Shown: one piece after another, positions 7,729-45,370 of the stretch
Layout of the letters: each line of letters opens with the position of its first letter
Numbering within the stretch: the first letter of the stretch is position 1
Source: a bacterium
GTDB lineage: Bacteria; Chloroflexota; Dormibacteria; Aeolococcales; Aeolococcaceae
Assembly: GCA_021803465.1 (NCBI GenBank)
Contig: JAJZLL010000024.1
Span: forward strand, 1-53,559
Reading direction: 5' to 3'
Length of the DNA stretch: 53,559 nt
Made by a program: the position numbers and the translations under genes
Notes under the pieces: generated by a model
Database searches by the model: none
What the model saw: only the letters and a program-made list of their open reading frames with translations
Told to the model about the DNA's origin: nothing

Positions 7729-7737
7729 GACATGACA

Positions 7738-9486
7738 ATGGAAACTCCTGAAACACGTACATGTGATGTCCTCGTCATCGGTGCAGGTGGCGCAGGCATG
7801 CGGGCAGCGATCGCTGCAACAGAGGCTGGGTGCTCGACCATTGTCGTCACGAAGTCCCTTCTTGGAAAGGCGCACACGGTCATGGCTGAGGGTGGCATCG
7901 CAGCAGCTCTTGGCAATGTGGATCCCGATGACGACTGGAAGGTCCACTTCGCGGACACTATGCTCGGAGGGCAGTTGCTCAACAACTGGCGTATGGTCGA
8001 GATCTATGCGCACGAGGTCATTGACCGGGTGCGCGAGCTTGAGAGCTGGGGTGGACTCTTTGACAGGACACCTGCTGGGGGAATCATGCAGAGGGCATTC
8101 GGTGCCCACTCATGGAAGCGGCTCTGCCATGTGGGTGACCGCACAGGGCTTGAGCTCATCCGCACCTGCCAGGACCGTCTTACGGCAACAGGAAAGGCGG
8201 ATGTATGCATGGAGTACACGCTCACGAAGCTCGTGAGTGATGGCAACCGCATTGTTGGCGCCATAGGCTACAAGCGGAGCGACGGTGGCTTTGTTGTCAT
8301 CAATGCGAAGGCTGTAGTCCTTGCGACAGGTGGGTGGGGGAAGATGTTCCGCTACACCTCGAACTCCTGGGAGGGAACAGGGGATGGCGCTGCAATGGCG
8401 TATGAGGTCGGAGCGGAACTCCTGGACATGGAGTTCATCCAGTTTCATCCGACAGGCATGATCTGGCCACCTGGTGCACGGGGCATCCTTGTCACGGAAG
8501 CTGTCCGTGGTGAGGGAGGCTACCTCTACAACAGCGAAGGCAAGCGGTTCATGTTCGAGTACGATCCGAAGAAACTCGAGCTGAGTTCCCGTGACGTTGT
8601 CGCACGGTCCATTTACAAGGAAGTGAAGGCGGGTCGTGGAACGCCCCATGGTGGCGCCTACCTCGACATCCGGCACAGGGGAGGAGACTACATCAAGCGG
8701 AAGCTTCCTTCGATGTATGAGCAGTTCCATGCTCTTGCTGCAGTGGACATCACGAAGGAGCCGATGGAAGTTGCTCCCACCATCCACTACACGATGGGTG
8801 GGATCAAGGTGGATCCAGAGACTGCAGCCTCCACTGTCCCAGGACTCTATGCGGCTGGTGAGGTTGCGGGAGGGCTCCATGGTGCGAACCGGCTTGGTGG
8901 AAACTCCCTTGGGGACATTCTCGTCTTCGGACGGCGGGCTGGAGAAGCTGCTGCGGAGTTTGCGAAGTCGCACGAGGCTGCATCCGTTCCCGATGGGGAA
9001 CTCGATGCTGAGCAGAAGCGTGTGCTTGCGCCACTTGCTGCGCCAGAGAAGGGGGAAGGCGAGAATCCATATCTCCTCCATGAGGCACTCCAGTGGGCCA
9101 TGCAGGATGATGCAGGCATTGCGAGGACTGAGGAGTCGCTGAACAGATCACTTTCTGCCATCCAGGAACTCAAGGGGCGGGCCAAGAACATGCATGTGCC
9201 TGGTGGCAGGACGATGAATCCTGGCTGGCACACCTGCAGGGATGTTGAGTCCATGCTCACTGTCTCCGAGGCAATCGTGCGAAGCGCGATCGAGCGGCGG
9301 GAGAGCCGGGGTTCGCAGTGGCGGCTTGACTACCTCGAGAAGGATCCAGAGCAGGCCAAGGTGAACTACGTGACGTACAGGAATGGTGACAGCATGGCTG
9401 TGAAGCCTGTGCCCCATGACCCCATTCCCAAGGAGAAGGAGGAGCTGCTCCACCACTCGCGGTTCTATGAGGAGAAGAAGGCATGA
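7738..9486 (+). CDS. sdhA: Succinate dehydrogenase / fumarate reductase flavoprotein subunit
   Basis: 582 residues. It oxidises succinate to fumarate with covalently bound FAD on the cytoplasmic face. The Rossmann motif DVLVIGAGGAGM is at the N-terminus, and KAHTVMAEGG carries the histidine expected to be linked to FAD. Substrate-site motifs QFHPTG and EAVRGEGG follow, then HYTMGGI and the C-terminal FAD segment ANRLGGNSLGDILVFGRRAG. The ATG at 7738 is preferred over one at 7732 because AGGA then sits at normal spacing. It begins 9 nt after sdhC, and its stop overlaps the sdhB start by ATGA, so the three genes form one operon. Sequence alone does not tell succinate dehydrogenase from fumarate reductase. 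The aerobic-type neighbour mdh favours the former. Confidence 0.95.
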   Translation: METPETRTCDVLVIGAGGAGMRAAIAATEAGCSTIVVTKSLLGKAHTVMAEGGIAAALGNVDPDDDWKVHFADTMLGGQLLNNWRMVEIYAHEVIDRVRELESWGGLFDRTPAGGIMQRAFGAHSWKRLCHVGDRTGLELIRTCQDRLTATGKADVCMEYTLTKLVSDGNRIVGAIGYKRSDGGFVVINAKAVVLATGGWGKMFRYTSNSWEGTGDGAAMAYEVGAELLDMEFIQFHPTGMIWPPGARGILVTEAVRGEGGYLYNSEGKRFMFEYDPKKLELSSRDVVARSIYKEVKAGRGTPHGGAYLDIRHRGGDYIKRKLPSMYEQFHALAAVDITKEPMEVAPTIHYTMGGIKVDPETAASTVPGLYAAGEVAGGLHGANRLGGNSLGDILVFGRRAGEAAAEFAKSHEAASVPDGELDAEQKRVLAPLAAPEKGEGENPYLLHEALQWAMQDDAGIARTEESLNRSLSAIQELKGRAKNMHVPGGRTMNPGWHTCRDVESMLTVSEAIVRSAIERRESRGSQWRLDYLEKDPEQAKVNYVTYRNGDSMAVKPVPHDPIPKEKEELLHHSRFYEEKKA

Positions 9487-10301
9487 CTGACACTGCAGAG
9501 GCAACGACAGACATCCGACACACGCAGGATGGACGTACAGGCCGCACAGTGCGCTTCTCGGTGTTCCGTGGTGTTCCCGGTGCGCAGGCATCGTATGTCA
9601 CCTATGATGTCCCGGAAGTTGAGGGCATGGTCGTCCTTGATGCCATCCACTACATCCAGAAGAACCTCGACATGGACCTTGCCTGCAGGTGGAACTGCAA
9701 GGCAGCCAAGTGCGGTTCCTGCAGCGCGGAAGTGAATGGCCATCCTGTGCTCATGTGCAAGACGAGGGTCGATGATCTTCCCGAAGGGACAGTAACAGTC
9801 GCGCCCATGAAGACCTTTCCGCTCGTGAAGGATCTCGTGACTGATGTCTCCCGGAACTACAAGGTGAATGCTGCGATCACACCTTTCACTCCACGGAAGG
9901 ATGAGCCGACACCCTGGAAGATCCAGCAGCATGACATTGAGCGACTGTACGAGTTCAGGAAGTGCATCGAGTGCTTTCTGTGCATGGATGTCTGCCACAT
10001 TCTGCGGAACCATGACCTCCATGAGGAGTACTACGGTCCCAGGTATTTTGTGCGCATGGCAGGTCTTGAAATGCATCCCATGGATGATGCGGACCGAACG
10101 GATGAGATACGGACTGCAGGTGGCATAGGTTTCTGCAACATCACAAAGTGCTGCACGGATGTCTGTCCGGAACATATCCACATCACGGACAACGCCATCA
10201 TTCCGATGAAGGAGCGAGTTGCTGACCGCCACTGGGATCCCATTCGCCGCATGTTCACGAAGAAGAAGCAGACAGCAAATGCTGCAGATGCGGCCGAGTA
10301 G
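9483..10301 (+). CDS. sdhB: Succinate dehydrogenase iron-sulfur subunit
   Basis: 272 residues. It carries electrons from FAD in SdhA to the membrane anchor through three clusters. The [2Fe-2S] cysteines are C72, C77, C80 and C92 (C-x4-C-x2-C-x11-C). The second domain has CIECFLCMDVC (C161, C164, C167 and C171) and CNITKCCTDVC (C218, C223, C224 and C228), as expected for one [4Fe-4S] and one [3Fe-4S] cluster. The C-terminus is basic (TKKKQ). The start codon overlaps the sdhA stop by 4 nt, with GGAG upstream. A strong hairpin terminator follows the gene. Confidence 0.95.
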   Translation: MTDTAEATTDIRHTQDGRTGRTVRFSVFRGVPGAQASYVTYDVPEVEGMVVLDAIHYIQKNLDMDLACRWNCKAAKCGSCSAEVNGHPVLMCKTRVDDLPEGTVTVAPMKTFPLVKDLVTDVSRNYKVNAAITPFTPRKDEPTPWKIQQHDIERLYEFRKCIECFLCMDVCHILRNHDLHEEYYGPRYFVRMAGLEMHPMDDADRTDEIRTAGGIGFCNITKCCTDVCPEHIHITDNAIIPMKERVADRHWDPIRRMFTKKKQTANAADAAE

Positions 10302-10434: not shown

Positions 10435-11427
10435 CTACGCAAGAAGCGCAGCAGGAGTGAGTTCCCGAAGTCCAAGCGCGCTTCCGTTCTGGTCCACGAC
10501 TGTCAGAAGATCCCGAACGGATTCCGCTGAGCGGTGGAGTGCTGCTGTCTCATCAGAGTTGAGTTCAACCGGGAATACCCGCTCCAGCCCCCTGGCGCTG
10601 AGCTGGCAGGGAACGCCAGTGAAGACGCCATGAATGCCGTACTCGCCTTCAAGATAGACGCTCACTGGAAGCACAGCATGGCTGTCATGGACAATGGCAT
10701 CGACCATCTGGGTGACTGCTGCGCTTGGTGCGTAGTAGGCGCTCCCTGACTTCAGGAGACCCACGATCTCTGCACCACCATCACGTGTGCGCTGGACTAT
10801 GGATGCAAGACGCTCCTTGCCGATGAGTTCCTCGACACACACTCCACCGACTGTGGTGAGACGGGTGAGAGGAACCATGGTATCGCCATGGCCACCGATG
10901 ACATATGCCTGGACATCGCTCCGCGACACCTTGAGCTCATCCGCGACAAACGTGCGGAAACGGGCAGTGTCAAGGATGCCTGCCATGCCGATGACACGCT
11001 CACGCGGGAAACCGCTTGCTGCCATGGCGACATGGGCCATTGCATCAAGGGGATTGCTCACGACAACGAAGACAGACTTTGGTGAGTGCTTCGCTGCATT
11101 CCTGGCCACGGATGCGACAATCTTCGCATTCGTCTGCACGAGATCATCACGTGACATGCCAGGCTTCCGTGCCATGCCGCTTGTGATGACAACAATGTCG
11201 GAGTTGGCAGTCGGCTCCCAGCCAGTATCGTCAGTGACAGTGACTCCTGTCAGTGTGGAGTCGAAACCTACAACAGGACCAGCTTCTGCGAGATCGAGCG
11301 CCTTTCCCTGGGGCATGCCTTCAATGACATCGACAAGGACAAGGTCCGCATAGTCCCGTTCAGCGAGACGGAGTGCAGTGGTTGCGCCAACGTTTCCAGC
11401 ACCAATGACTGTGATCTTCATTCTCAT
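10435..11427 (-). CDS. mdh: Malate dehydrogenase (lactate-dehydrogenase-like type)
   Basis: 330 residues. It interconverts malate and oxaloacetate with NAD in the TCA cycle. The Rossmann motif [14 protein letters not shown] opens the protein. The mobile-loop segment [13 protein letters not shown] carries the arginines that select malate over lactate, and the substrate arginine and catalytic histidine are in DTARFRT and GGHGDTM. Length and motifs match the LDH-like MDH group. The ATG at 11427 has GAGG about 8 nt upstream; MKIT at 11421 is an alternative. It is convergent with sdhCAB, which puts two consecutive TCA-cycle activities side by side, and divergent from nth. A C-terminal extension of about 15 residues ends in AALLA. 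Confidence 0.95.
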
Positions 11428-15031: not shown

Positions 15032-15146
15032 GCTGCATGTGTTCCAACGTGAAGTAGCCTCTCTCCGGTAGGATAGGAAATGGAATACACACCATCATAT
15101 CGTTCAGCATGCCCCATGGATGGGCGTGCTCAGGTGTGAAACCTCG

Positions 15147-15152
15147 TATACT
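15147..15152 (+). promoter_or_regulatory. Candidate -10 box
   Basis: TATACT, 37 nt before the ATG at 15190, in the divergent gap upstream of kimA. No -35 is recognisable. Confidence 0.35.
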
Positions 15153-15189
15153 GGTAGTGTGCTTGGAGATGTGTGAAGGAAAGAACTCG

Positions 15190-16062
15190 ATGACGTCATT
15201 GCAGCCACAGAGTGATCACGACGACCCTGAGATTGAGCCGACCGTCATGAACGGTACGGACAGCACGGCAGACCCGGATTCACCACAGGCAGCACACCCT
15301 GACGAGGACGAGAGCAGTGCAGCACTGCGGAGACGGACATCGCGCAAGGGACGACAGACAATCGTCTTTTCCGTTCCCGATCTACCTCCCATTCGCCGTC
15401 CCCGGGGCTTGGACCACCTTGACCGTGTTCCACAGATTCCCTCTCCGGATCACAAGCACCTTCCCGGCTGGACCAAGCGGATGCATTCCCAGGCTGCACC
15501 CATTCTTGCGGACATTGCGGGCCATCTTGATGGCGAGGCGCAGGAAATCTACCTTGGCCAGGTGAGCAGGGTCGTTGCCATGATCAGCGAAGGAAAGTTC
15601 AGCCAGGCACGTCTCTACGCGAAACTCATTGATGACGGCTACAAGCAGGTCTCGAGCGTCCGGAAGACTCAGGAGAAGACTGCACGTCAGACAATGGCGA
15701 TAGGAACGCTCAGAAAACGGCTCAGTGACGATGTGCGGGCCCTTCAGGGAAGGGTTGGGCAGGAAGCCTTCAGCAAAATCCAGCAGGATCTCCGGCAGGC
15801 GAATACACGGGATGAGCTCCATGATGTGCAGCAGGAAGTGACACGGCTTCAGGCAGAGGTGCAGCAGGTTGAGAGCAAGCGCCGGGACCGCGAGATTGCG
15901 AGGACACGTGAGCGGATCATGCACGTTGCAGGAGGTGCGAAGTCCAGGAGCTCTGCTGCTGTCGCGCCGGAAGCAGGTGGGTGGCAGGCAATGCTCAAGC
16001 AGTTTGCAGTCGAGAATGGCATTGTGAGTGAGGAAAGCTCGGACAGCACTGATGCTGACTGA
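15190..16062 (+). CDS. Hypothetical coiled-coil protein
   Basis: 290 residues with no recognised domain. The first 60 residues are acidic and disordered (repeated D, E, P and S), followed by a basic patch (RRRTSRKGRQ). The centre is helical, and residues about 170-245 form a likely coiled coil rich in Q, E and R (LHDVQQEVTRLQAEVQQVES). No membrane segment or signal peptide is present. The ATG at 15190 has AAGGA about 10 nt upstream; an in-frame start at 15109 would add a sequence lacking coding character. It is upstream of the CBS / GltD-like operon but separated by a gap with its own promoter, so no functional link is implied. Confidence 0.7.
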   Translation: MTSLQPQSDHDDPEIEPTVMNGTDSTADPDSPQAAHPDEDESSAALRRRTSRKGRQTIVFSVPDLPPIRRPRGLDHLDRVPQIPSPDHKHLPGWTKRMHSQAAPILADIAGHLDGEAQEIYLGQVSRVVAMISEGKFSQARLYAKLIDDGYKQVSSVRKTQEKTARQTMAIGTLRKRLSDDVRALQGRVGQEAFSKIQQDLRQANTRDELHDVQQEVTRLQAEVQQVESKRRDREIARTRERIMHVAGGAKSRSSAAVAPEAGGWQAMLKQFAVENGIVSEESSDSTDAD

Positions 16063-16106: not shown

Positions 16107-16150
16107 GTGGGCAGCAGGTGCAGTATCGGCGAGTTGGAAAGGATTCCTCA

Positions 16151-16648
16151 ATGACCAAAACACACGATGACGTACTGACTGGGCTCGATCCAGACCGTCT
16201 TGCGCCCTCAAAAGCCAACCCCAGTGTCCGCGATGTGATGCGGCACGAGGTGGTGTACTGTCTTCCGAGCACACCAGTTGATGCAGTGGCAAAGCTGCTT
16301 GCGGACAATGATCTTGATGAGCTTCCCATGATCATTGATCACAAGGTCGTCGGGTATGTGACAGGACACGACATTCTCCAGTGCCTTGCTTCAAATGCCA
16401 TCTCAATTGCTGGCAGTGATTTCGCAGTGCGTGCACCAACAACGGCAGTCATGGCAGCGGATCTCCTCCGCTCGCCAGCCCTTCTTGTTGATGAGAAGCA
16501 GCTGCTTGGGGATGTCGTAGCGACACTGCAGCAGCAGCACCGTGCTGTCGCAGTGGTGATGCATGAGGATGAGGTTCCTGTGGGAATGATCTCTGCGAAG
16601 GAAGTTGTTGCATTCACTGCCGCTGCTGTGAATGGGGAGGGGCGTTAA
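16151..16648 (+). CDS. Stand-alone CBS-domain protein
   Basis: 165 residues forming one CBS pair (Bateman module). The first CBS covers about residues 25-85 (SVRDVMRHEVVYCLPSTPVD, then LDELPMIIDHKVVGYVTGHD), the second about 100-155 (AVAVVMHEDEVPVGMISAKE). Such pairs bind adenine nucleotides and act as energy sensors; the ligand here is unknown. The ATG at 16151 is preceded by AAAGGA at 7 nt. The TAA stop overlaps the start of the next gene by one base (TAATG), so the two are co-translated. The next protein begins with a second CBS-like region, so the two may pair physically and let nucleotide binding control the flavoprotein. Confidence 0.85.
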   Translation: MTKTHDDVLTGLDPDRLAPSKANPSVRDVMRHEVVYCLPSTPVDAVAKLLADNDLDELPMIIDHKVVGYVTGHDILQCLASNAISIAGSDFAVRAPTTAVMAADLLRSPALLVDEKQLLGDVVATLQQQHRAVAVVMHEDEVPVGMISAKEVVAFTAAAVNGEGR

Positions 16649-18867
16649 TGGCGGACCTTGGAACAATAATGCTGCCCATCACGGGTGTTGTTGCGCCTGA
16701 TGTGCAGCTGAAGGACGCCATTCCCCAGATCAGAGAGCATGCACCACTTCCCCTATTTGTGGGAACAGCAGCAAAGATTGAGGGATGTCTTGATGCCACA
16801 GGCCTCATGACAGGAGGAGAGCAGTCACTCGTTGCGGGAACCGTCAGCGATGTGATGGGAAGCGTTCTTCTGCTCGACAGTGGGCTCACAATTGAGGAAG
16901 CCACGCGTCGTCTCCTCGCTTCCAGCGCAAAAGCTGTGGTTGTCACAGAGCGGACTGGAGTGTTTGGCGGAGCCGTGGCGCCAGTGGGATTTGTGAGCAC
17001 AGTCCAGATTCTTGCCCGGATTGGCAAGAATGTCATGGACAAGGCTCCCATGAAGATCCTTTCCGGCAAGCGGGATCTTGGCTTCAATGTCCCGATCACT
17101 CCGTGCCAGAGGAACTGTCCCATCCATCAGGAGATTGCGACATACATCGACTATGTGAGCCAGGGACGGTATGTCGATTCGTGGATGGTCATCCATGAGA
17201 CGAATCCGTTTCCGAGCATGCTTGGAAGGCTCTGCAACCATCCATGCGAGACTGACTGCAAGCGTGGCTGGGATGCGGGAGAGGAGCCTGTAACGATCCG
17301 CTCCATCAAGCGGTTCTCCACGGACTATTCGTACTCCCAGGGACTCTGGATCGACTACAAGATCGCGCCAGAAAAGGGGAAGAAGGTGGCCATTGTCGGT
17401 GGTGGACCTTCTGGCCTCACTGCAGCACTGGATCTCCGGGTGCAGGGGTACGATGTCACGATCTTCGAGCGTGAGGGAAAGGTGGGCGGATGCCTAAGCA
17501 CGAGCATTCCCCCCTTCCGGTTTGATCACAAGCAGCTGAAGTGGGAGATTGACATGATCCTGGCCACAGGCATCACTGTCAACACGAACACTCCTGTAGG
17601 CGATGGCGAGAATGACATCCATCTCGACGATCTCCTGCGTGACTACGATGCTGTGTACACGAGTGTGGGTCTCATGAAAGGTCGCATCCTTCCTGTGCCT
17701 GGTCATGATGCAACACAGGTGACTGATGCGATGTCGTTCCTCCGGACCATCTCGTATGACCGCATCCCTGACCATTTCCCCATTGATGGCCGTGTCGTCG
17801 TCGTGGGAGGTGGCGCAGTTGCCACGGATGCCTGCCAGTCCTCTATCAAGATGGGCGCTGGTGAAGTGTGGATGTGCGCGATCGAGCCTGAGGACAAGCT
17901 TCCCGCATTCGGCAATGAGCTTCATGAGGCAAAGGAGATTGGTCTCCACATCCAGTGCGGAATCCTCGTGAAGGAGATCCTCCATGACACCGAGGGGAAT
18001 GTGACTGGCGTGTCGTTTGCTCCCCTTGATGAGCTCCAGTTTGATCCGATGTCCGGCAAGCTCATCTTTGCCTCCGTCAAAGAGAAGGAGGGAGCGGAGA
18101 GGTGGACAGTCGATGCGGACTATGTCATCTTCGCTTCGGGCCAGATGATGGACACACCTGGTGGTACAGCACCACTTTCTCCACGTGGACTTGTGAGTGC
18201 GGATCGTGGTGGCCACACGAGCGTTCCAAAGCTCTTTGCTGGGGGTGACTGCGTCCAGGGTCCATCATTCATTGTCGATGCGATGGGCTGGGGGCACAGG
18301 GTTGCACGGTCCATCAGGGAGTTCCTTGGCGAGAAGCAGGAGAACCTCGATGGCCGGCTCTACCAGACCATTGTTGAGCGTACGGATGACCACAGGAAGT
18401 CCGAAGTGTTCGAGCGCACGGAGCCAGCCATTCTTGAGGCAGCGAAGCGGTACGACATGTCGGAGTGCGAACTTCCCTGGAGCGATGAGGAAGCAGTCGT
18501 GCAGGCGATCCGGTGCTTCCAGTGCGATACAGTGCACTACTACGATGAGAGCGTCTGCGTGCTGTGTGGCGCGTGCGATGATGTCTGTCCCGAAAAGGCA
18601 ATCGATGTTGTCGTGTTTGGTGAGGACAGGGAACGCTCATCTGGAGGCACAACAAAGGTCTGCGAGACTGAGGTTGGACTTCCTGATGGGGGAGGAGTTG
18701 GCGGAGAAATCTTCATCAACTATGACCGCTGCACCAACTGCAGGATCTGTGAGGACCACTGCCCAGTGAACTGCATCACGTTCGAACGAGTCCGGTACGT
18801 GGATGACAGGATGCGGGTTGTCGAGAAGCCCCACCTTGCGAAGACACTGCCACTCATGGCAGTCTAG
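16648..18867 (+). CDS. CBS - GltD-like NAD(P)H oxidoreductase - 2x[4Fe-4S] ferredoxin fusion
   Basis: 739 residues in three parts. Residues 1-130 look like a degenerate CBS pair (SDVMGSVLLLDSGLTIEE, then VVVTERTGVFGG and PVGFVSTVQIL). Residues 145-600 match the glutamate-synthase small-subunit / DPD-like flavoprotein: an N-terminal Fe-S site (C153, C157, C196, C200 and C204), an FAD Rossmann motif VAIVGGGPSGLTAA at 247-260, and a second nucleotide site VVVVGGGAVATDACQ. FAGGDCVQGPSFIVDAMGWG is the C-terminal FAD segment. Residues 637-647 and 695-705 are two C-x2-C-x2-C-x3-C ferredoxin motifs. No glutamate synthase large subunit is nearby, so a role moving electrons between NAD(P)H and ferredoxin or a partner enzyme is more likely. 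A paralogous fusion without CBS closes the por operon at 43745. Confidence 0.85.
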   Translation: MADLGTIMLPITGVVAPDVQLKDAIPQIREHAPLPLFVGTAAKIEGCLDATGLMTGGEQSLVAGTVSDVMGSVLLLDSGLTIEEATRRLLASSAKAVVVTERTGVFGGAVAPVGFVSTVQILARIGKNVMDKAPMKILSGKRDLGFNVPITPCQRNCPIHQEIATYIDYVSQGRYVDSWMVIHETNPFPSMLGRLCNHPCETDCKRGWDAGEEPVTIRSIKRFSTDYSYSQGLWIDYKIAPEKGKKVAIVGGGPSGLTAALDLRVQGYDVTIFEREGKVGGCLSTSIPPFRFDHKQLKWEIDMILATGITVNTNTPVGDGENDIHLDDLLRDYDAVYTSVGLMKGRILPVPGHDATQVTDAMSFLRTISYDRIPDHFPIDGRVVVVGGGAVATDACQSSIKMGAGEVWMCAIEPEDKLPAFGNELHEAKEIGLHIQCGILVKEILHDTEGNVTGVSFAPLDELQFDPMSGKLIFASVKEKEGAERWTVDADYVIFASGQMMDTPGGTAPLSPRGLVSADRGGHTSVPKLFAGGDCVQGPSFIVDAMGWGHRVARSIREFLGEKQENLDGRLYQTIVERTDDHRKSEVFERTEPAILEAAKRYDMSECELPWSDEEAVVQAIRCFQCDTVHYYDESVCVLCGACDDVCPEKAIDVVVFGEDRERSSGGTTKVCETEVGLPDGGGVGGEIFINYDRCTNCRICEDHCPVNCITFERVRYVDDRMRVVEKPHLAKTLPLMAV

Positions 18868-18882: not shown

Positions 18883-19356
18883 GTGCCAACGCACCTCGAC
18901 ACTGACGAACAGTTCATGTCCGTGGCACTCATGCTTGCGAGGCATGCTTGGGACATGGGCGAAGTGCCAGTGGCAGCTCTCGCAGTGAGGAAGGGAACCA
19001 TCATTGCTGCACGCTGGAACGAGATGGAGCATCTGCATGATGCGACTGCGCATGCGGAAATGGAAGTGCTGAGGACGTGTGCAGTACGCGCATCATCATG
19101 GCGCCTCGATGGTGTCACGCTCTACGTGACACTGGAGCCATGCGCCATGTGCGCAGGCGCACTCGTGCTCTCACGTGTGGACCGTGTCGTGTATGGAGCC
19201 CACGACCCCAAGAAGGGTGCCGATGGATCTGTGATGGATGTGCTCCAGCATGAACGCAACAACCACCACCCGGAGGTGAGGGAAGGAGTGCTCGCTGCCG
19301 AGTCCCGGGAACTGCTCCAGCAGTTCTTCAGGGAGCGGCGAAAACAAGTCAGCTGA
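18883..19356 (+). CDS. tadA: tRNA-specific adenosine deaminase
   Basis: 157 residues. It deaminates A34 to inosine in the tRNA-Arg(ACG) wobble position. The zinc site and catalytic glutamate are HAEME near residue 58 and PCAMC near 86. The N-terminal strand AWDMGEVPVAALAV and the loop GAHDPKKGADGSVMDVL fit TadA rather than cytidine or guanine deaminases. The GTG at 18883 gives normal family length; the ATG at 18916 would cut into helix 1. It lies 15 nt after the CBS-GltD-Fd gene and is probably co-transcribed. The tRNA substrate gene is not in this window. Confidence 0.9.
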   Translation: MPTHLDTDEQFMSVALMLARHAWDMGEVPVAALAVRKGTIIAARWNEMEHLHDATAHAEMEVLRTCAVRASSWRLDGVTLYVTLEPCAMCAGALVLSRVDRVVYGAHDPKKGADGSVMDVLQHERNNHHPEVREGVLAAESRELLQQFFRERRKQVS

Positions 19357-40946: not shown

Positions 40947-41534
40947 GTGACCCACGAACACAGATCCATCCGCATCCACGGCCGTGGTGGACAGGGTGTC
41001 GTGACAGCAGCGGAGCTTCTTGCAGTTGCAGCATTCCACAATGGACAGTACTCCCAGGCATTCCCGAGTTTTGGCTCTGAGCGGATGGGAGCACCTGTCG
41101 TAGCCTACTGCAGGCTTGCCACCTCGCCCATTCGCTCGCATGCTCCGATCGGGGCACCAGATGTGCTCATCATCCAGGATGCGACCCTCCTCAACAGCAG
41201 GGATATCCTCGTGGGACTTGCTCCAGATGGGTACTGCTTTGTCAATACGCTCCGCCCAGGGTCTGAGCTTGCAGGAGACTCCCGTCTTCCCACCCTTCCC
41301 AAGGGACATCTTGTGACTCTCCCTGCCACGGAAATCGCGCTTGCCAACATCGGCAGGGCAGTGCCAAATGTGCCGCTCCTTGGAGCGTATGCAGTGGTCT
41401 GCTCGGACATCTCGGTGTCCGCACTTGAGCAGGCCATTTATGACCGCTTCCCTCGAGCCATTGCGGAAATGAACTGCCGTGCTGTCGAGGCAGGTGCAGC
41501 AGCTGTCCAGGAGGTGCTTGAGCATGCTCGTTGA
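40947..41534 (+). CDS. porG: Pyruvate:ferredoxin oxidoreductase gamma subunit
   Basis: 195 residues. The signature IRIHGRGGQGVVTAAELLA and QAFPSFGSERMGAPVVAY match the gamma chain of multi-subunit 2-oxoacid:ferredoxin oxidoreductases, which binds coenzyme A. The complex interconverts pyruvate, CoA and oxidised ferredoxin with acetyl-CoA, CO2 and reduced ferredoxin. The GTG at 40947 has AAGGAG 6 nt upstream. It overlaps porA by 11 nt. Candidate -10 hexamers (TAGACT at 40907, TACCAT at 40920) give a short leader; which is used is unclear. The delta (ferredoxin) subunit is not a separate gene here but is fused to the last gene of the operon. Confidence 0.92.
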   Translation: MTHEHRSIRIHGRGGQGVVTAAELLAVAAFHNGQYSQAFPSFGSERMGAPVVAYCRLATSPIRSHAPIGAPDVLIIQDATLLNSRDILVGLAPDGYCFVNTLRPGSELAGDSRLPTLPKGHLVTLPATEIALANIGRAVPNVPLLGAYAVVCSDISVSALEQAIYDRFPRAIAEMNCRAVEAGAAAVQEVLEHAR

Positions 41535-42750
41535 GGTGGAAGGTTCCCAGGCCGTTGCGGACGTGATTGTTGGTGCAGCACCGGATGTCGTATGCGCATA
41601 TCCCATCACTCCGCAGACGCACATTGTCGAGGGTGTCGGCAGGGCAGTCAGGAGTGGAGCACTGCATGCGGAATTCATCAATGTGGAATCAGAGTTCGCT
41701 GCACTCTCCGTGCTCATAGGAGCATCAGCAGCAGGTGCGCGCACCTACACAGCAACTGCAAGTCAGGGACTCCTCTTCATGATGGAGGCTGTCTACAATG
41801 CTGGTGGGCTGGGACTTCCCATTGTCATGACGCTCGCAAACAGGGCTGTTGGGGCACCCATCAACATCTGGAATGACCAGAGCGATGCCATGGCAGCCAG
41901 GGATGCAGGATGGATACAGCTGTTTGCCGAGTCAAACCAGGATGCTGTCGATCTCCACATCCAGGCGTTCCGCATAGCTGAGCAGTGCTCGCTGCCTGTC
42001 ATGGTGTGCATGGATGGATTCGTGCTCACGCATGCTGTGGAGCGCATCGATCTTCCTGCCCGGGAGGAGGTTGCTGCGTTCCTTCCCCGCATCCCACCGA
42101 GGCAGCTCCTTGCAGCAGCAGATCCCATCACCATTGGTGCCATGGTGGGTCCAGAAGCGTTCACTGAGGTCCGTGTCCAGGCGCACGAGGCCATGAGGAG
42201 TGCATGCACGACCATCGAGACAGTGCAGTCGGAGTTCCGCACAGCGTTTGGCCGGAATGCGGGAGGCCTTCTCGCACCATACCACCTTGATGATGCTGAG
42301 ACAGTGGTCGTTGGCATGGGCTCCGTGCTCGGCACCATGAAGGATGTGGTGGATCGGCGCAGGGAACGGGGTGAGCGCATAGGTGTGCTGGGAGTCACGA
42401 CATTCAGGCCCTTTCCTGCAGAAGCCATCAGGGATGCGCTTTCAGGACGGACACATGTCATTGTGCTCGAACGTGCACTTGCCACAGGCACAGGAGGCAT
42501 TCTCACGAATGACATCGCGCGTGCACTCTTCGATGAGGATGTCCATCTTGCGACAGTCGTTCTCGGTCTTGGTGGAAGGCCTGTACGCGAGGATGATCTC
42601 GACAGCATATTTGTGAAGCTGCGGTATGGCACGCTTCCTGACCTCTCGTTTCTGGATCTTCATGCGGAACATGCTGGTGGCGGAAGGGGGCAGCTGGAGA
42701 TGCCGGTGCACCGCTTCGGCTCACCGCTTTCCAGGAGGATGACGAGATGA
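41524..42750 (+). CDS. porA: Pyruvate:ferredoxin oxidoreductase alpha subunit
   Basis: 408 residues. The opening VCAYPITPQTHIVEGVGRAV, then HAEFINVESEFAALSVLIGA and TYTATASQGLLFMMEAVYNA, match PorA, the pyrimidine-domain half of the thiamin-diphosphate site. WNDQSDAMAARDAGWIQLFA and VCMDGFVLTHAVERI further favour the pyruvate enzyme over the 2-oxoglutarate type, whose alpha chain is longer. The ATG at 41524 has a perfect AGGAGGTG 8 nt upstream. The stop overlaps porB by ATGA. Confidence 0.92.
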   Translation: MLVEVEGSQAVADVIVGAAPDVVCAYPITPQTHIVEGVGRAVRSGALHAEFINVESEFAALSVLIGASAAGARTYTATASQGLLFMMEAVYNAGGLGLPIVMTLANRAVGAPINIWNDQSDAMAARDAGWIQLFAESNQDAVDLHIQAFRIAEQCSLPVMVCMDGFVLTHAVERIDLPAREEVAAFLPRIPPRQLLAAADPITIGAMVGPEAFTEVRVQAHEAMRSACTTIETVQSEFRTAFGRNAGGLLAPYHLDDAETVVVGMGSVLGTMKDVVDRRRERGERIGVLGVTTFRPFPAEAIRDALSGRTHVIVLERALATGTGGILTNDIARALFDEDVHLATVVLGLGGRPVREDDLDSIFVKLRYGTLPDLSFLDLHAEHAGGGRGQLEMPVHRFGSPLSRRMTR

Positions 42751-43748
42751 GTGAGCATGTCCGCTTCTACCAGGTGGGAAGCTTTGCAGTTGGCAACCGC
42801 CTTCTCGACAGGGAACTCCAGACAGTCCAGGCGCAGATGGAGCGGACCAATGCGCTCGACAGTGGTCACCGTGCATGCCAGGGATGCGGAGAGGCGCTCG
42901 CAGCACGGTATGTGCTCGATGCTGCCATGCGGGCTACAGGCAATGACATCGTTGTGGTCAATGCGACAGGCTGCCTTGAGGTGTTCTCCTCACCGTATCC
43001 GGAATCCTCATGGAAGGTTCCCTGGCTCCACTCGCTTTTCGGGAATGCGCCAGCAGTTGCCACAGGTGTGGCAGCTGCACTCCGTGCCCAGGGGAAATCA
43101 TCAACGCGTGTAGTTGCTCAGGCAGGTGACGGTGGAACAGTTGACATCGGCTTTGGCACCCTCTCCGGAATGTTCGAACGGAATGATGATGTGCTGTTCG
43201 TCTGCTACGACAATGAGGCGTACATGAACACGGGAGTGCAGCGTTCAGGTGCAACACCTCCTGCTGCACGCACAGCGACAACCGAGGCGATTGGTCCTGA
43301 ACCCGGGAACGCCTTTGGTCAGGGCAAGGATCTTCCAAGGCTCGCAGTCGCCCATGGCATTCCCTATGTGGCGACTGCAACTGTTGCGGATCTGCACGAT
43401 CTCGAGGCGAAGGTCATGCACGCAATGGAAATCCGGGGAGCACGGTACCTCCATGTGCTTGTACCATGTCCACTGGGCTGGGGAACTGAGGCGCATGACA
43501 CCATCCGTGTTGCGCGACTTGCCTGTGAAACAGGTCTCTTCCCCGTGTACGAGGCTGTGAACGGCGTGGTGACAGAACGTCTCCGCATCCGCCACAGGAG
43601 GCCAGTTGAGGAGTATCTCCGCATGCAGAAGCGGTATCAGCATCTCTTCCGGGGTGAAGGCCGGCCGGACATTGTGCAGCGCATCCAGCAGATTGCGGAT
43701 GCGCAGATCAGGCAGTATGACCTGCTGCCTGGGGAGGTGAATCCATGA
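42747..43748 (+). CDS. porB: Pyruvate:ferredoxin oxidoreductase beta subunit
   Basis: 333 residues. It carries the thiamin-diphosphate pyrophosphate site and one [4Fe-4S] cluster. CQGCGEALAARYVL gives two cluster cysteines, the third is in NATGCLEVFSSPYP and the fourth in ARLACETGLFPVYE. The TPP motif is GDGGTVDIGFGTLSGMFERN, ending in CYDNEAYMNTGVQRSGATP. AGGAGG lies 8 nt before the ATG. Both ends overlap neighbours by ATGA, so the stoichiometry of the complex is likely set by coupling. Confidence 0.93.
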   Translation: MSEHVRFYQVGSFAVGNRLLDRELQTVQAQMERTNALDSGHRACQGCGEALAARYVLDAAMRATGNDIVVVNATGCLEVFSSPYPESSWKVPWLHSLFGNAPAVATGVAAALRAQGKSSTRVVAQAGDGGTVDIGFGTLSGMFERNDDVLFVCYDNEAYMNTGVQRSGATPPAARTATTEAIGPEPGNAFGQGKDLPRLAVAHGIPYVATATVADLHDLEAKVMHAMEIRGARYLHVLVPCPLGWGTEAHDTIRVARLACETGLFPVYEAVNGVVTERLRIRHRRPVEEYLRMQKRYQHLFRGEGRPDIVQRIQQIADAQIRQYDLLPGEVNP

Positions 43749-45370
43749 CACTGCCATATGCCATTTCGCTGCAGGCTGACAGTGGCAGACGGAACAGGAC
43801 GGGCACATGGCGGGTGGAACGTCCCATGTATGTGGACCGTGTGCCACCCTGCTCCACAGCATGTCCAGCTGGTGAGGAAGTGCAGTCCTGGCTCTATGCA
43901 GCTGAGGAAGGACACTACGAAGAGGCTTGGCACAGGCTCACACGTGACAATCCCTTCCCAGCCATCATGGGCCGCATCTGCTATCACCCGTGCGAGACTG
44001 CCTGCAACCGGGCAACTCTCGACAGTGCTGTTGGCATCAATGCAGTGGAACGGTTCCTTGGGGACTATGCACTTGAGCATGGACTGACTTTCACCATGCC
44101 AGCAGTAGTCCATGAGACTCCAGTGCTCGTCATTGGAGGAGGACCCTCCGGATTGTCTGCTGCGTACCATCTTCGGAACCGCGGTTTCCGTGTTGTTCTC
44201 TGGGAACGGGAGCATGAGCTCGGTGGAATGCTCCAGTACGGCATTCCTGCGTATCGGCTTCCCAGAGACATTGTGCACGGAGAGGTGGAGCGGCTCCTTG
44301 GAGATGGCATTGAGGTGCGGACTGACATGCCAGTTGATAATCTCGCAACACTCATGGCAAGCCAGGAGTACGCAGCATGCTACATCGCCATTGGCGAGGG
44401 GATCGGGAAGAAGATCGACATACCCATGGAAGATGGAACACGCCTGACAGATGCACTCTCCCTGCTCAGGAAGGCAGCCCATGGTGAACCGATAGAGATT
44501 GGGAAACGCGTTGCTGTCTATGGTGGGGGAAACACAGCCATGGATGCTGCCAGAACTGTGCAGCGCCTTGGTGCGCATGAGACAGTGATCGTGTACAGGA
44601 GAACTGCGCGCGAAATGCCAGCCCATCCCGAAGAGCTCGAAGAGGCGCTGGAGGAGGGAGTTGACGTCCGGTGGCTCTCGACGATTTCCCACGTGGACCT
44701 TCACGATCTCACGATCGAGCAGATGGTCCTCGATGATGCAGGGAAGGCGAAGCCAACAGGGAAGTTCACAACGCTTGAGGCGGACACAGTCATCCTTGCT
44801 GTTGGCCAGGACAGCGACACGGGACTCGTCTCCACCATGCCCGACATCGTGGTGGAAGGGGGAGAGGTGACAGTCGATGCGAAGGGAATGACTGGAGCAT
44901 CTGGCATCTTTGCTGGAGGCGATGTCGTTCCTGGAACGAAGACTGCCACAGATGCCATCGGCATGGGCAAGCGTGCTGCAGCTGCAATTGCCGCATTCCT
45001 TGGCCATCCGGATGCTGTGGTTCCTGCACGCGATCCTGCAACATACGAACGGCTGAACACCTGGTATTTCTCCGATGCACCGCGGTCAGTGCGTCCAACA
45101 CTTGAAATGGCCAGGAGAACAACGAGCTTTGATGAGGTAGTGCTGCCGCTTGATGTGGAAACAGCACTGTTCGAAGCGCGACGCTGCATGTCATGCGGCA
45201 ACTGCTTCCAGTGTGACAACTGCTACGGCATGTGTCCGGACAATGCCATCATCAAGGATCCAGCCTCAGGTCACGGGTATCGCATCGATCTCGAATACTG
45301 CAAGGGATGCGGAATCTGCGCTGCGGAGTGTCCGTGCGGTGCGATCGACATGGTCCCTGAACCATTCTAG
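43745..45370 (+). CDS. GltD-like NAD(P)H oxidoreductase fused to PorD-type 2x[4Fe-4S] ferredoxin
   Basis: 541 residues. Residues 30-100 hold the N-terminal Fe-S site of GltD-like proteins (C36, C40, C79, C83 and C87). The FAD motif VLVIGGGPSGLSAAYHL is at 127-143, GGMLQYGIPAYRLP is the usual active-site segment, the NAD(P) motif is VAVYGGGNTAMDAARTV, and the second FAD segment is GIFAGGDVV. Residues 479-541 match the PorD ferredoxin subunit: cysteines 481, 484, 487, 490, 493 and 497 in a C-rich knot, then CKGCGICAAEC (519-529). As the last gene of porGAB it should accept electrons from the pyruvate enzyme and pass them to NAD(P), or run the other way. The nucleotide used is not decided by sequence. 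Confidence 0.88.
   Translation: MTLPYAISLQADSGRRNRTGTWRVERPMYVDRVPPCSTACPAGEEVQSWLYAAEEGHYEEAWHRLTRDNPFPAIMGRICYHPCETACNRATLDSAVGINAVERFLGDYALEHGLTFTMPAVVHETPVLVIGGGPSGLSAAYHLRNRGFRVVLWEREHELGGMLQYGIPAYRLPRDIVHGEVERLLGDGIEVRTDMPVDNLATLMASQEYAACYIAIGEGIGKKIDIPMEDGTRLTDALSLLRKAAHGEPIEIGKRVAVYGGGNTAMDAARTVQRLGAHETVIVYRRTAREMPAHPEELEEALEEGVDVRWLSTISHVDLHDLTIEQMVLDDAGKAKPTGKFTTLEADTVILAVGQDSDTGLVSTMPDIVVEGGEVTVDAKGMTGASGIFAGGDVVPGTKTATDAIGMGKRAAAAIAAFLGHPDAVVPARDPATYERLNTWYFSDAPRSVRPTLEMARRTTSFDEVVLPLDVETALFEARRCMSCGNCFQCDNCYGMCPDNAIIKDPASGHGYRIDLEYCKGCGICAAECPCGAIDMVPEPF

Follow-up and report, generated by a model that had tools for sequence, protein, structure and literature searches.

A stand-alone CBS-pair protein and a CBS-flavoprotein-ferredoxin fusion encoded as a coupled gene pair in Dormibacteria

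In a bacterium of the Dormibacteria the gene of a small CBS-pair protein runs directly into that of a long iron-sulfur flavoprotein with a CBS-like N-terminus, which raises the question of what kind of enzyme the pair encodes and what the two CBS parts contribute to it. The genes were studied in a window of 53,559 nt, i.e., the whole stretch of DNA that was analysed; coordinates of all features are positions in this window. An earlier note made from the sequence had pictured an electron-transfer enzyme switched by energy state, with the separate CBS protein as its partner. The relevant features are listed in Table 1.

Table 1. Features of the window discussed in this work.
Feature	Position	Strand	Remarks
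Coiled-coil-like protein of unknown function	15109..16062	+	317 aa; probably opens the operon in family f1
Stand-alone CBS-pair protein	16151..16648	+	165 aa; ORF list and Pfam
CBS - FeS/FAD/NAD - ferredoxin fusion	16648..18867	+	739 aa; ORF list and Pfam
N-terminal CBS pair of the fusion	16648..17022	+	residues ~1-125; HHalign, Pfam in orthologues, PDB profile, predicted fold
Fer4_20 cluster domain	17098..17340	+	residues 151-231; Cys153, 157, 196, 200, 204 and Glu212 invariant
FAD/NAD(H)-binding body (Pyr_redox_2)	17380..18285	+	residues 245-546; two-Rossmann
RCFQC motif, Cys623-F-Q-Cys626	18514..18525	+	invariant, also in the porAB-linked paralogue; predicted ligands
C-terminal 2x[4Fe-4S] ferredoxin domain	18556..18780	+	Cys637, 640, 643, 647 and 695, 698, 701, 705
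tadA-like nucleoside deaminase	18883..19356	+	next gene in f1; named from sequence features, no profile scan
KorC-like paralogue without CBS	43745..45370	+	541 aa; after POR alpha (41479-42750) and beta (42747-43748)

The gene pair and its neighbourhood

The small CBS gene begins with the ATG at 16151, a GTG at 16118 being a possible alternative start further upstream, and its TAA stop codon ends at 16648, where the ATG of the fusion gene begins. In the resulting TAATG one base is common to stop and start, as confirmed in the ORFs, and the co-translation that had been proposed from this overlap is in keeping with a coupling that is preserved across related loci. In all 23 loci in which both genes were readable, the small CBS gene was found directly upstream of the fusion gene on the same strand, at a spacing of -8, -1, +2 or +3 bases; the linkage in relatives on which the earlier note depended was thus found throughout. 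It is kept despite an identity of only about 30% between the small CBS proteins of families f1 (to which the window belongs) and f3.

Every part of the two proteins is under purifying selection. Values of dN/dS were 0.04-0.10 for the small CBS protein, 0.06-0.26 for the N-terminal CBS region of the fusion, 0.02-0.12 for its body and 0-0.04 for its C-terminal ferredoxin domain, which is nearly invariant between genomes. As the arrangement recurs in 23 related loci under low dN/dS, it is not a product of chance. One MAG carries a fusion gene broken by a shift of frame at about residue 560-600 (locus L021, 2411-4569). Promoter and terminator scans of the + strand were uninformative.

In several f1 genomes the gene of the 317-aa protein keeps its place immediately before the CBS gene, and in one of them (G303) the homologue overlaps the CBS gene by 4 bases; a scan of the protein against Pfam and NCBIfam gave no match. 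About 6 kb upstream of the pair, the window encodes succinate dehydrogenase/fumarate reductase subunits and a malate dehydrogenase-like protein (7732-10301 and 10435-11427). In G303 and G151, too, homologues of these genes are found near the operon.

CBS modules and redox body

By Pfam the small protein consists of two CBS domains (E 6.4e-18), in agreement with the stand-alone CBS pair described before. No Pfam CBS match was obtained for residues 1-137 of the window's fusion itself; the N-terminus of 11 out of 14 fusion orthologues did match, the best with an E value of 1.8e-7. When the alignment of fusion N-termini was compared with that of the small CBS proteins by HHalign, the two matched with a probability of 95% (E 2e-8), and a PDB profile search with the N-terminus led to CBS proteins. 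The fold predicted for residues 1-146 (pLDDT 78) retrieved CBS-pair (Bateman) structures as the top 50 Foldseek hits (prob 1.00, E 4e-7 to 1e-5). Orthologue Pfam matches, HHalign, PDB profile and Foldseek therefore agree on the CBS-like N-terminus claimed in the earlier note, a claim that turned on a CBS fold in residues 1-130. In some loci (G159, G405 and G400) the small upstream CBS protein is matched by the N-terminal profile as well, hence there is a relationship between the two CBS pairs.

They differ in the ribose-binding motif. The first CBS domain of the small protein retains T-x-x-D (GYVTGHD), the Asp74 of which is invariant in 14 sequences, whereas [ST]-x-x-D is conserved in neither repeat of the fusion CBS. 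Because the motif is kept in one partner and lost in the other, the small protein is the likelier sensor; on the simplest reading of these motifs it would be the sensor and the fusion CBS a docking pair. Whether small CBS and fusion CBS combine into one heteromeric CBS module appears evenly balanced. We infer an adenine nucleotide as the ligand, and a switch that responds to energy state is plausible. The literature searched contained no case of a CBS pair joined to a GltD/ferredoxin flavoprotein.

In the remainder of the fusion Pfam identified Fer4_20, Pyr_redox_2 and two Fer4 domains; the latter correspond to the two C-terminal [4Fe-4S] sites that had been noted earlier. With the cluster ligands of NfnB as a reference (PMC7596348), Cys157, Cys196, Cys200 and Glu212 would hold the proximal cluster, while Cys153 and Cys204 would each occupy a corner of the distal one. 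The remaining two ligands of NfnB lie in an R-C-x-x-C motif that precedes the domain. In the fusion this motif follows the FAD/NAD body, and its Cys623 and Cys626 probably provide the two ligands that the distal cluster still lacks. With regard to the cofactor, the fusion reads MCAIEPE at residues 409-415, where the porAB-linked paralogue carries an NADP-type YRR. As YRR is replaced by I-E-P, NADH is more likely to be used than NADPH. The AlphaFold model of the whole chain (mean pLDDT 59) was poor beyond the CBS region and parts of the FAD/NAD body, and too weak for judging the cluster ligands or the position of the ferredoxin domain.

Homology to GltD was evident from a match to TIGR01316 (E 1.5e-70). 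The score against NF009410 (PRK12771; E 2.2e-116, 390 bits) was below the cut-off of 516, i.e., the fusion is related to this curated subfamily yet stands outside it. The nearest solved relatives in profile searches were subunits of Nfn/Stn transhydrogenases (E 7.6e-84 to 3e-63). Fer4_20, the Rossmann folds for FAD and NAD(P), a C-terminal RCxxC and the ferredoxin domain are all present, and the assignment of the body to the NAD(P)H:acceptor oxidoreductases of the NfnB/KorC/DsrL type, not to glutamate synthase as such, is well supported. The GltD-like body of the earlier note thus holds as a statement of homology and fails as a dedicated glutamate synthase subunit, as the window genome has no GltB.

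Distribution of the fusion and its relation to System II

Among 400 Chloroflexota genomes, with the window's class included, the full-length fusion was present in only two families, f1 and f3, both of this class. The same was seen class-wide (110 genomes), where it occurs in f3 and f1 but not in f2 or f4; within f1 it is missing from genus g9, from g229 and g230, and from a small number of incomplete genomes. A scan of 85,000 genomes with peptide seeds, sensitive to close relatives only and the sole check outside Chloroflexota, returned only records titled Dormibacterota or Chloroflexi. In an RpoB tree, f1 divides into a clade of g9 and g230 and a sister clade with all its other members; f2 is the sister family of f1, while f3 and f4 stand apart.

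In f3 the gene after the fusion, usually 1-2 bases downstream, is ccsB (TIGR03144, 230 bits; cut-off 188), which encodes the heme channel of System II, the machinery for attaching heme to cytochrome c, while in f1 ccsB is unlinked to the fusion; in the window genome it is located on contig 31. The remark that no catalytic partner is adjacent is therefore correct for the window and does not extend to f3. Fusion and CcsB were concordant in 107 of the 110 class genomes (both present in 37, both absent in 70). The discordant ones are G404, with a fusion fragment at a contig end and no CcsB, and G411 and G421, with CcsB alone in genomes that are 58% and 79% complete. Fisher tests of this association, which ignore phylogeny, gave p values of 1e-25 by genome and 2e-9 by genus. 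ResB followed the pattern of the fusion in 61 genomes except for the window genome (91% complete), in which it was not found; it is present in a congener. In f4 the CcsB model gave nothing beyond weak, System-I-like matches, and in f2 and g9 it gave none.

Placed on the RpoB tree, this pattern implies at least two gains or three losses shared by fusion and CcsB, that is, co-transitions on at least 2-3 separate branches. The co-occurrence is suggestive of a functional link, although any trait of cytochrome c respiration in the class would match equally well. CcsB scores above the cut-off in 72 Chloroflexota genomes of other classes, none of which has the fusion; System II therefore does not need the fusion in general, and the latter is at most a lineage-specific solution.

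The System II genes can be split: at loci L111 and L112 (G095 and G303) resB is close to NuoF-containing complex I loci, in both families, and ccsB is elsewhere. In the small genome G004, resB and ccsB are followed by the gene of an NrfH/TorC-like multiheme cytochrome (L077, 7472-8920).

CcsBA is reported to move reduced heme outward (PMC10663686), and a review counts the means of heme reduction in System II among the unknowns (PMC5526843). An NADH-dependent iron-sulfur flavoprotein encoded in a ccsB operon is a candidate for a cytoplasmic source of these electrons.

Proposed function, alternatives and known relatives

Taken together, the two genes probably encode an NADH:acceptor oxidoreductase that is regulated by its CBS module. 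That System II cytochrome c maturation is the acceptor pathway is a tentative proposal, and the most specific version is unlikely as it stands: an energy-gated reductase dedicated to the System II of Dormibacteria, which would pass electrons from NADH to heme or to the thiol relay and in which a heteromeric CBS module would tie assembly to adenylate charge. In the proposed mechanism the fusion would take hydride from NADH at the FAD, and single electrons would pass the two clusters at the Fer4_20 domain, the distal one completed by Cys623/Cys626, to reach the C-terminal ferredoxin domain, which would dock on the acceptor. The small CBS protein would pair with the nucleotide-blind CBS of the fusion to form one four-CBS module, which would switch the electron flow with the adenine nucleotide level. 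The likeliest acceptor would be System II, served either by reduction of heme for CcsB/ResB or by reduction of the thiol relay, and the assembly of cytochrome c would thereby come to depend on the supply of NADH and on energy charge.

The main rival, which we consider a strong contender though somewhat short of even, is a CBS-regulated NADH:ferredoxin (or ferredoxin:NAD) oxidoreductase of general function. Such an enzyme would balance the two pools, e.g., by handling electrons from KorAB, and its link to System II would merely mirror a common aerobic physiology. It would suit f3, where KorA-type genes are present without KorC and no GltD-like protein other than the fusion occurs, and both the resemblance of the body to Nfn subunits above all others and the near-invariant ferredoxin domain, which fits a carrier or a docking surface, are in line with it. 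However, G054 has the fusion and no POR match, f4 has POR and no fusion, and in the window genome KorAB is already equipped with its own KorC. A role in ferredoxin balancing also leaves unexplained why the fusion shares an operon with ccsB and why it is absent from the CcsB-less f2 and the g9/g230 clade. A bifurcating Nfn-like enzyme that requires an NfnA-type partner would account for the closest solved structures, which are subunits of NfnB, NfnABC and StnABC, but no NfnA-like (FAD/2Fe-2S) gene was recognised among the scanned neighbours, and we regard it as improbable.

Still less probable is a glutamate synthase (GOGAT) beta subunit with added regulation. The TIGR01316 match and the situation in f3, where GltB is present and the fusion is the only candidate for GltD, speak for it. 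On the other hand, full GltB is missing from the fusion-bearing window genome (G000), its congener G366 and G004 from another genus of the family; the f1 genomes that do have GltB (G045, G303 and G223) encode a separate GltD beside it; and f4 demonstrates that GltB in this class need not have a GltD-like protein. As a general role it is largely refuted by the fusion genomes without GltB. The GltB of f4 has about 1400 aa and is not accompanied by any GltD-like protein; this is what a ferredoxin-dependent GOGAT would be expected to show. Two further candidates were rejected. A POR/KOR subunit in the role of KorC is at odds with the absence of POR genes beside the fusion in the window and the scanned neighbourhood, and with the lack of a POR match in G054; a replacement for the NADH module of complex I is at odds with NuoF in 60 of 61 class genomes, both with and without the fusion.

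If the preferred reading of a CBS-regulated oxidoreductase is true as to its regulation, the pair represents an electron-transfer flavoprotein of the Nfn/KorC/DsrL type into which a CBS gate of two parts is built, an arrangement for which no match was found in the literature searched. If the link to System II is true, it provides a concrete candidate for keeping heme reduced in a little-studied, mostly uncultured soil lineage.

Among known systems, KorC of Thauera and Azoarcus exemplifies the KorC-type NAD(P)H subunit of 2-oxoacid:ferredoxin oxidoreductases. The window has a protein of this type in a complete POR/KOR operon (41479-45370) composed of alpha, beta and an NADP-type (YRR) flavoprotein free of CBS. 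It is 34% identical to the fusion over residues 150-652, so the paralogy claimed in the earlier note stands, while the porAB-linked protein is no CBS fusion. Fer4_20, FAD/NAD(P) body, RCxxC and C-terminal 2x[4Fe-4S] domain are arranged in the same order in both; the fusion differs by its CBS, by IEP in place of YRR and by the lack of a POR neighbour. The GltD-like subunits of NfnB, StnABC and NfnABC (4ylf, 5jca, 8oh5, 9bov and 9n5u) are homologous to the body (E to 7.6e-84); in the fusion CBS is added and an NfnA-like partner was not recognised among the scanned neighbours. Its RCxxC lies on the C-terminal side, which agrees with 9bov and 8oh5 but differs from 4ylf and 5vj7.

DsrL belongs to dissimilatory sulfur metabolism and has measured NAD(P)H:acceptor oxidoreductase activity; its proximal ligands are those of NfnB (PMC7596348). 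Domain order, linker and C-terminal two-cluster ferredoxin are common to DsrL and the fusion, in which the DsrL order extends over residues 151-715; the fusion differs by an extra CBS region of 140 residues, which contains the N-terminal pair, and by genomic context. CBS-pair regulators such as AcuB, CBSX, OpuCA and the CBS of MgtE have the same fold as residues 1-120 of the fusion and a domain make-up like that of the small protein. System II (ResB/CcsB) co-occurs with the fusion in Dormibacteria and shares a probable operon with it in f3, but the fusion is not a described component of that system and is absent from the sampled CcsB-bearing Chloroflexota outside the class. Fusion and small CBS protein are a conserved, probably regulated variant of the known Nfn/KorC/DsrL kind of enzyme.
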